Below, piece by piece: positions 36,844-38,272 of a DNA stretch of 64,000 nt. The position numbers and the translations under genes were made by a program. Position 1 is the stretch's first letter, and each line of letters opens with the position of its first letter. The notes under the pieces were generated by a model that was not told the origin of the DNA, did not search any database, and worked only from the letters and a program-made list of their open reading frames with translations. Source of the stretch: Arenimonas terrae (GTDB taxonomy: Bacteria > Pseudomonadota > Gammaproteobacteria > Xanthomonadales > Xanthomonadaceae); the NCBI RefSeq assembly GCF_006265115.1, contig NZ_SMDR01000001.1, forward strand, positions 1,612,001 through 1,676,000. The letters run 5' to 3'.

Positions 36844-36866
36844 TTACGTCCGGGGAGGGCATTTTC
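36844..36866 (-). promoter_or_regulatory. Predicted ECF promoter of the sigma/anti-sigma operon
   Basis: On the minus strand GAAAA (36866-36862), 13 bases, then CGTAA (36848-36844), ending 7 bases before the sigma ATG at 36837. The same spacing and near-identical boxes precede two plus-strand genes. Confidence 0.6.
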
Positions 36867-36933
36867 TTCCCGCCCGCACCGCCGCGGCGCCGGGCTGGCC
36901 GGATGCTAGCACCGGCCGGCGCGGAGCCCGGAT

Positions 36934-36956
36934 GAAACGGCCCTCTCCGCGCGTAG
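36934..36956 (+). promoter_or_regulatory. Predicted ECF promoter of the subtilase gene
   Basis: GAAAC (36934-36938), 13 bases, then CGTAG (36952-36956). The subtilase ATG at 36966 is only 9 bases further, so the transcript would be nearly leaderless. Confidence 0.6.
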
Positions 36957-36965
36957 GGTATTGGC

Positions 36966-38228
36966 ATGACCCGGATCCTTTCCCTGCTGCTGCCGCTGCT
37001 GCTCGCCCCGCCGGCGGCGCTGGCGCTCGGCCTGCCGGCCCCGCTGCCCGCGCTGCCGGTGGACCTGCGCGGCGACGTGGTCGAGCCGCTGGACCGCAGC
37101 ACGCGCGACCTGGCGGGACTGCGGCAGCTGCAGGTCCGCCAGCTGCTGCGCGAGCACCGGAAATTCCTGGACACCGACCCGCGCGGCGCGCCGGTGGTGC
37201 GCGGCGAAGTGGTCGCGATCGACCCCACGCCCGAGGCGCTGCAGCGCGCCCGCGACGCCGGTTTCCGCGTGCGCGACGAACGTCGCCTCGAAGGCCTGGG
37301 CCTGCGCATCGTGGTGCTGCAGGCGCGCGAGGGCCAGCGCAGCCGCGCCGCGCTCAAGGCGCTGCGCCGGCTCGATCCGTCGGGCAGCTACGACTTCAAC
37401 CACCTTTACCTGGGATCGGGAACGGCCGCCGGCGTGCCGGCACCGATGCCCGCATCGGCCGAGCGCACCGCGCTGCGCGTGGGCCTGGTGGACACCGGGG
37501 TGGACGCCGCACATCCGGCGCTGGCCGGCGTGCGGGTCGACACCTGGGGCTGCGGCGGTGCAGCGAAACCGCACCGCCACGGCACCGCCGTCGCCTCGCT
37601 GCTGGTCGGCAGCCGCGTGCGCGCGGCGCCGGCGCGGCACCGCCTCTACGCGGCCGACATCTACTGCGGCCGCCCGACCGGCGGCGCCGTGACCGGGCTC
37701 GCCGAAGCCTTCGCCTGGCTCGCGCAGGAGAAGGTCGCGGTGGTGAACCTCAGCCTCGTCGGCCCGCCGAACCAGCTGCTCGAACGCGGCGTGCAGGCGA
37801 TGCTGGCGCGCGGCCACGTGCTGGTGGCGGCGGTGGGCAACGACGGACCGGCGGCGCCGCCGCTGTATCCGGCCGCCTATCCCGGCGTGATCGGCGTCAC
37901 CGCGGTGGACGCGCGCGACCGCGTGCTGCCCGAAGCCGGACGCGGCGAGCAGGTGGATTTCGCCGCACCCGGCGCCGGCCTGTCGGCCGCCGGCGACGGC
38001 GGCGGCTGGTGGGACGTGCGCGGCACGTCGTTCGCGGCGCCCCTGGTGGCGCGGCTGGCGGGCGCGCAGGCGCCGCAGCCCAGCCCCGGCGCCGCGCTGC
38101 GCGTGCAGTCGGCGCTCGCCGCGCAGGCGCGCGACGCCGGCCCGCGCGGCGACGATGCGCGCTACGGCCGCGGCCTGCTCGGCGGCGAGCAGCGCGCGCG
38201 CTGGTCCGCGCCGATGAACGAAGACTGA
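36966..38228 (+). CDS. Subtilisin-like serine protease, S8 family (420 aa)
   Basis: A secreted or periplasmic serine protease. The signal peptide (1-20) is followed by a propeptide-like region of about 140 residues. The catalytic triad motifs appear in order: RVGLVDTGVDAAHP (Asp), HRHGTAVASLLVG (His) and VRGTSFAAPLVA (Ser), with the oxyanion AVGNDGP stretch in between. It faces the sigma/anti-sigma operon and has the same promoter motif, so it is a likely member of that regulon. It may act in envelope stress. Its C-terminus is short and has no membrane anchor. Confidence 0.92.
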   Translation: MTRILSLLLPLLLAPPAALALGLPAPLPALPVDLRGDVVEPLDRSTRDLAGLRQLQVRQLLREHRKFLDTDPRGAPVVRGEVVAIDPTPEALQRARDAGFRVRDERRLEGLGLRIVVLQAREGQRSRAALKALRRLDPSGSYDFNHLYLGSGTAAGVPAPMPASAERTALRVGLVDTGVDAAHPALAGVRVDTWGCGGAAKPHRHGTAVASLLVGSRVRAAPARHRLYAADIYCGRPTGGAVTGLAEAFAWLAQEKVAVVNLSLVGPPNQLLERGVQAMLARGHVLVAAVGNDGPAAPPLYPAAYPGVIGVTAVDARDRVLPEAGRGEQVDFAAPGAGLSAAGDGGGWWDVRGTSFAAPLVARLAGAQAPQPSPGAALRVQSALAAQARDAGPRGDDARYGRGLLGGEQRARWSAPMNED

Positions 38229-38249
38229 AAAAATTCCCGCCCGCGGGAA

Positions 38250-38272
38250 GAAACCCCGCCACCGGTTCGTAG
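38250..38272 (+). promoter_or_regulatory. Predicted ECF promoter of the low-complexity secreted protein gene
   Basis: GAAAC (38250-38254), 13 bases, then CGTAG (38268-38272), about 50 bases upstream of the ATG at 38322. It lies next to a small hairpin (38234-38249) after the subtilase stop. Confidence 0.6.

Follow-up and report, generated by a model that had tools for sequence, protein, structure and literature searches.

The closest described systems are those of the RpoE/RseA, SigE/ChrR and SigL/RslA types, in which an ECF sigma factor and a membrane anti-sigma factor are encoded in a translationally coupled operon, and in which GGAA-type −35 and CGT-type −10 elements go together with autoregulation and a small local regulon. 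The locus analyzed here, which lies in a 64-kb stretch of Arenimonas terrae DNA (the window), appears to resemble them in all of these respects, but its putative targets are different: a pro-subtilisin of the I9-S8 kind and a secreted protein of low complexity (LCP). SigW promoters of B. subtilis (TGAAAC-N16-CGTA) also have GAAA and CGTA boxes. The spacing here, N14 from GAAA, is unlike that of SigW promoters; in the alignment, GGAA forms the −35 core and precedes CGTA by 18 nt, and the GGAA-to-CGT distance equals that of ordinary ECF promoters. We found no description of this locus in open-licence papers, and the ECF papers searched yielded no mention of S8 neighbours or of other members of the sigma group.

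For the RNA leader that precedes the LCP gene, the nearest parallels come from read-through transcription. In the IS10 and IS50 transposase genes, the ribosome site is sequestered in read-through RNA and not in RNA from their own promoters; these genes encode transposases of mobile elements, and their sequence is unrelated to the LCP leader. For the B. subtilis sigG leader, a hairpin has been proposed that keeps read-through mRNA of the upstream operon from being translated and is unable to form when transcription begins at the promoter of the gene itself; a second hairpin lies over the ribosome site (PMC5942855). The sigG leader is a precedent for the gate proposed here, with two differences: the gated gene here is an ECF sigma target and not a sigma factor, and the LCP leader recurs in many genera together with an inner hairpin. 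Taken as a whole, we consider a self-contained ECF sigma switch with three promoters, and with an LCP leader that may act as a gate, the likely explanation of the locus.

Genes of the locus

The sigma factor gene (36325–36837, minus strand; 170 aa) matched Pfam Sigma70_r2 (2.5e-16, residues 17–80) and Sigma70_r4_2 (1.6e-14, residues 107–158), as well as NCBIfam TIGR02937 above its cut-off. With regions 2 and 4 and without regions 1 and 3, the predicted product classifies by domain content as an ECF (group 4) sigma factor. Six aligned sigma orthologues served as the query for a scan of species genomes, which yielded 79 loci; we used the 46 with at least 54% identity (L041–L086; 54–79%). An S8 gene adjoins sigma in all 46 loci, and an LCP-like ORF occupies the same place 3' of S8 in 44 of them.

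The anti-sigma factor gene (35612–36328, minus strand; 238 aa) overlaps the sigma gene by the four bases ATGA. Its product has an inferred topology of N-terminal sigma-binding helices, one transmembrane segment (about residues 91–110) and a periplasmic domain, with a hydropathy peak at residues 92–110 in the window protein and a peak in each of 33 sequences. Two cysteines of the periplasmic domain, C163 and C179, are invariant in 28 sequences. The NCBIfam antisigma family matched the protein at 4.6e-6, below the family cut-off, and the helices at 1–60 of its structure model (pLDDT 86) aligned to RslA, ChrR and RskA at modest Z scores of 5–7, with Foldseek E values above 0.5 and profile matches below cut-offs. 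Fold searches with the periplasmic domain returned nothing convincing, and no zinc-binding motif was recognized at Pfam's cut-off. We regard the protein as a putative class-I-like membrane anti-sigma factor.

The S8 gene (36966–38228, plus strand; PF00082, 2.7e-22) encodes a secreted pro-subtilisin with a predicted I9-like prodomain (about residues 46–150), and the best match of its structure model was pro-subtilisin E over 377 columns, prodomain included. The triad D176, H205 and S355 and the oxyanion N292 are invariant in 31 sequences and near-invariant in 47; C196 and C234 are conserved cysteines. With triad and oxyanion Asn in place, the protein is a candidate for an active, self-processing S8 subtilase. 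We found no plus-strand terminator between S8 and LCP in the window. A terminator-like hairpin on the minus strand (38234–38249), just past the S8 stop, faces antisense transcription from the LCP side.

The LCP gene (38322–39233, plus strand) encodes a Gly/Ala/Ser-rich protein with a signal peptide, for which Pfam and NCBIfam searches returned no family, and is followed by an intrinsic terminator (39256–39279, plus strand). Beyond the signal peptide, the window protein has no aromatic residue or Cys. Across loci, LCPs are 40–64% Gly/Ala/Ser with aromatic residues and Cys almost absent, and an LxGG stretch is present near the N terminus of 36 of 43 complete proteins. LCPs of the Luteimonas group are of a different low-complexity type but share this promoter and leader. 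Immediately past the LCP terminator, the window encodes a pepsin-like aspartyl protease (39307–40554, plus strand; PF00026, 4.9e-9), a mostly eukaryotic family.

A paralogous sigma factor with 50% identity is encoded on contig C3 (G000:C3:195386–195850; L176 2887–3351, minus strand), followed by its own anti-sigma-like ORF and preceded by the site GGAATAAT...CGTC. Similar paralogues occur in G018, G022 and G010.

Promoter motif and its conservation

An earlier note on this DNA had described the motif GAAAM-N13-CGTAR as preceding, at identical spacing, the operon for sigma and anti-sigma, the subtilase and the LCP. This was borne out: the window contains three matches over both strands compared to 0.07 expected, and 0 of 100 shuffles reached three. 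A scan of the whole genome gave 10 matches compared to three for a reversed control, and the seven matches outside the locus all fell inside open frames of at least 395 codons; the motif is not equally frequent elsewhere, and the proposed regulon was not refuted. The common element is in fact longer by four bases at its 5' end. A scan of the 3.3-Mb genome for this form, GGAWGAAA-N14-CGTA, gave three exact matches, none of them outside the sigma/S8/LCP locus, and with one mismatch allowed there were seven further matches compared to eight for the reversed control. Shuffles and whole-genome counts together rule out chance as the source of the motif.

The sigma promoter (GGAAGAAA-N14-CGTA; 36845–36870, short motif 36844–36866) lies on the minus strand, 7 nt before the sigma ATG, in agreement with the earlier description of one site on the opposite strand. 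The S8 promoter (GGATGAAA-N14-CGTA; 36930–36955, short motif 36934–36956) and the LCP promoter (GGAAGAAA-N14-CGTA; 38246–38271, short motif 38250–38272) are on the plus strand, the former 10 nt before the S8 ATG. The span first assigned to the regulon, 36844–38272, includes all three sites and leaves out the anti-sigma gene and the LCP leader.

To score conservation, a promoter matrix was trained on LCP promoters only, with the window left out, and compared with a background of 1,836 stretches. Sigma promoters exceeded the 99th percentile of background in 45 of 46 loci, and an LCP promoter was identified by consensus 44–63 nt before the ATG in all 44 loci with an LCP ORF. On the S8 side, seven of 46 loci exceeded the same percentile, but in three of these (L057, L060 and L071) the match runs antisense across the sigma start and was left out of the S8-promoter count. 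The remaining four (L041, L042, L044 and L052) have clear promoters at a distance of 9–10 nt from the S8 ATG. A weaker candidate with CGTT, about at the 99th percentile, is present in three betaproteobacterial loci (L077, L079 and L082). In those three loci, the sigma and S8 promoters seem to use one palindromic −35, GGAAGAAAATCC, with CGTT as the −10.

Because the S8 promoter is clear in four of 46 loci and the sigma and LCP promoters are near-universal, the three-promoter layout is confined to a few lineages and the two-promoter layout is general. An S8 promoter as a conserved feature was not supported beyond a few lineages. The idea that the shared motif joins the protease and the secreted protein in one regulon, putatively of the envelope-stress type, holds in part: the motif is shared and the sigma and LCP promoters are conserved, but a clear S8 promoter is limited to the window and these four loci. 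The proposal that sigma regulates itself from the opposite strand is strengthened, as its promoter is kept in nearly all orthologous loci. Judged by promoter conservation, both sigma autoregulation and control of the LCP by sigma are well-supported predictions.

A separate site may provide basal expression. On the minus strand at 36902–36911, TGCTAGCATC is a candidate housekeeping extended −10, from which we propose basal transcription of sigma and anti-sigma; the same string occurs at five places in the genome, each 15–74 nt before an ORF. In 17 of 46 loci, TGCTAGCAT is found 60–157 nt upstream of sigma, with no occurrence elsewhere in 495 kb of those loci, and it probably gives basal sigma expression as an extended −10 for the housekeeping sigma factor. 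Upstream of sigma, this candidate extended −10 is often part of a full palindrome, GATGCTAGCATC, and is possibly bidirectional. We had considered GATGCTAGCATC as a special bidirectional operator; we rejected this reading, as the string also directly precedes other ORFs in the genome, and prefer an ordinary extended −10.

The LCP leader RNA and a possible read-through gate

Beyond the earlier note, we identified a conserved leader RNA in front of the LCP gene (38272–38321, plus strand), which we analyzed for folding, covariation and the cost of opening the Shine-Dalgarno (SD) sequence. It forms an inner hairpin (38284–38290/38297–38303, plus strand) and an outer helix (38276–38281/38309–38314, plus strand) that covers the SD (38311–38315). 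Four of 45 leaders (L072, L073, L075 and L082) were left out of the alignment (A4) and the model (R1). For the inner hairpin, 81% of pairs were kept, with 14 double changes, and the covariation score and the number of paired cells were beyond all 500 shuffles and greatly exceeded slid controls; pairs showing a double change (n = 3) were not unusual in number. A search of 38100–38500 against Rfam revealed no riboswitch or thermometer family above gathering score.

The outer helix is found in most lineages except Xanthomonas, and in it the SD pairs with bases 3–9 after CGTA, immediately adjoining the −10. We tested this pairing on 57 distinct leaders, using 28 disjoint closest pairs for a paired test. 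For bases 3–10 with the 3' part, a leader's own combination beat the swapped one in 22 of 28 pairs and lost in three (sign test, p = 8e-5). By block (uncorrected p values, several blocks), the signal was strongest at bases 7–9 (p = 1.7e-4), followed by 3–6 (p = 0.004) and 1–3 (p = 0.06), with no covariation at bases 10–12 or in the promoter spacer. When the swap test was restricted to 15 representatives of greedy clusters, it was marginal (p = 0.05–0.07 for bases 3–10 and 1–12).

Across the 57 leaders, opening the SD cost 5.1 kcal/mol in read-through RNA compared to 2.5 in RNA starting 7–11 nt after CGTA (window, 7.4 versus 4.2), and the read-through cost was higher in 41 leaders and lower in 11, counts that overstate the evidence because leaders of related species are not independent, which makes the paired test the better guide. 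Shuffling the first ten bases lowered the cost from 5.2 to 3.2 kcal/mol, with the leader's own bases giving the higher value in 42 of 57, and swapping them lowered it to 4.1. In the 11 Xanthomonas leaders, where the outer helix is absent, the cost was 1.8 kcal/mol for full and 2.2 for truncated RNA. Given that Xanthomonas keeps the inner hairpin without the outer helix, and that the greedy-cluster test was marginal, there is a modest chance that the inner hairpin alone matters, as a 5'-terminal stabilizer of a highly expressed mRNA, and that the complementarity of the outer arms simply arises from pyrimidine-rich DNA facing a purine-rich SD. The matched-pair tests and the controls with shuffled or swapped first ten bases, however, favour a leader's own pairing.

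How the outer helix would act depends on where transcription starts. Sigma start codons lie 6–9 nt after CGTN in 24 of 45 loci, 4 nt after it in two, directly after it (as TTG) in one and 12–38 nt away in 18. For S8, the window and the four loci with a clear promoter place the start codon 9–10 nt past CGTA. In the window, the sigma and S8 start codons fall 7–10 nt past CGTA, so that both mRNAs are probably leaderless; transcription would then begin at about base 7 from CGTA. A portion of the outer helix's 5' strand is then likely to lie upstream of the LCP start site; the size of this portion is uncertain, covariation being strongest at bases 7–9 and weaker at 3–6 and 1–3.

On this basis, we propose that a signal to the periplasmic domain of the anti-sigma factor would release sigma, which would then transcribe its own operon (positive feedback), S8 and LCP from the GGAWGAAA-N14-CGTA promoters. 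In mRNA reading through from S8 into LCP, the outer helix would block LCP translation; sigma-initiated LCP mRNA would lack part of the 5' strand, leaving the SD free and the message translated. We put forward such a promoter-embedded translational gate tentatively, as a real possibility: only sigma-started LCP mRNA would be translated, S8 read-through would stay silent, and the cassette would be regulon-specific and kept while the protein behind it changes. A gate explains why the SD covaries with a −10-adjacent strand that is probably in part untranscribed from the LCP's own promoter, and it fits the constant adjacency of S8 and LCP without a plus-strand terminator in the window. The Xanthomonas leaders show that it is not universal, as do two beta-barrel leaders (L171 and L172) in which a comparable helix stops before the SD and leaves it open.

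If transcription instead started nearer CGTA, sigma-initiated mRNA would hold the whole outer helix, and the leader would be a regulator of the usual SD-sequestering kind, such as a thermometer-like element or the target of an RNA-binding protein. We regard this as rather unlikely. It agrees with the covariation peak at bases 7–9, which would be transcribed either way, and with a fold that covers the SD in most leaders, but nothing maps a start that near CGTA, and the 24 sigma genes with start codons 6–9 nt after CGTN have no obvious ribosome site, suggesting leaderless starts. The very GC-rich inner hairpin and the lack of an Rfam family at gathering score also argue against it.

Distribution of the promoter-leader cassette

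We ran a covariance model of promoter plus leader, and separately the sigma protein, on 395 family genomes, with cut-offs of at least 53% identity for sigma orthologues and E up to 5e-5 for leader matches. Of the 38 genomes that have a sigma orthologue, 37 had a strong leader match, as did one of the 357 genomes without (G023); as the model was built from such loci, this co-occurrence shows linkage and specificity, not independent discovery. The 38th genome (G339) had only a weak leader match, about 1.4 kb from sigma. The assembly of G023, in which no sigma orthologue was found, is 94% complete. No further regulon members emerged in the window's genome: the model gave nothing above noise beyond the three promoters, and the S8 promoter itself scored only E = 0.146 in the genome search.

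These distributions make it very unlikely that another ECF sigma factor, for instance the paralogue on contig C3, transcribes from the promoters. That paralogue is present and has a related upstream site, but the site ends in CGTC and not CGTA, leader and promoter follow the orthologue of the window's sigma in 37 of 38 genomes, and the cassette is nearly absent where this orthologue is missing, including many genomes with the paralogue alone. From conservation and co-occurrence, we infer that the sigma factor of the locus recognizes the promoters assigned to it. Least likely of all, and only marginally credible, is that the inverted repeats form a DNA operator for a repressor and not an RNA structure: the inner repeat is nearly palindromic, but compensatory changes and differing arm sequences keep the pairing, and a DNA operator would have no need of outer arms that reach the SD.

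The proteins behind the promoter-leader cassette differ: most lineages have Gly-rich proteins there, the Luteimonas group has a low-complexity protein of another type, and a beta-barrel, at a place elsewhere, follows the cassette in two close relatives. In the latter (G026 and G023), a further promoter-leader copy precedes a beta-barrel gene. The two beta-barrel (porin-like) genes (L171 2000–2907 and L172 2022–2929) each have their own promoter and hairpin leader copy. Beta-barrel homologues adjoin the LCP in the Luteimonas–Lysobacter–Pseudoxanthomonas group, and a search of the window's genome, run without a positive control, gave no match. Another stretch (L175; G077:C18:13000–23000) contains two promoter-leader units, each 5' of an LCP-type gene, together with a beta-barrel gene; the sigma match in G077 has one TGA within the aligned stretch.

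The sigma/anti-sigma/protease locus is spread over the Lysobacteraceae and some betaproteobacteria, and the analysis supplies it with a promoter motif, a predicted regulon of three defined targets and a leader RNA that is conserved. If the gate is true, the leader would be a compact means of making a target gene deaf to neighbouring transcription.
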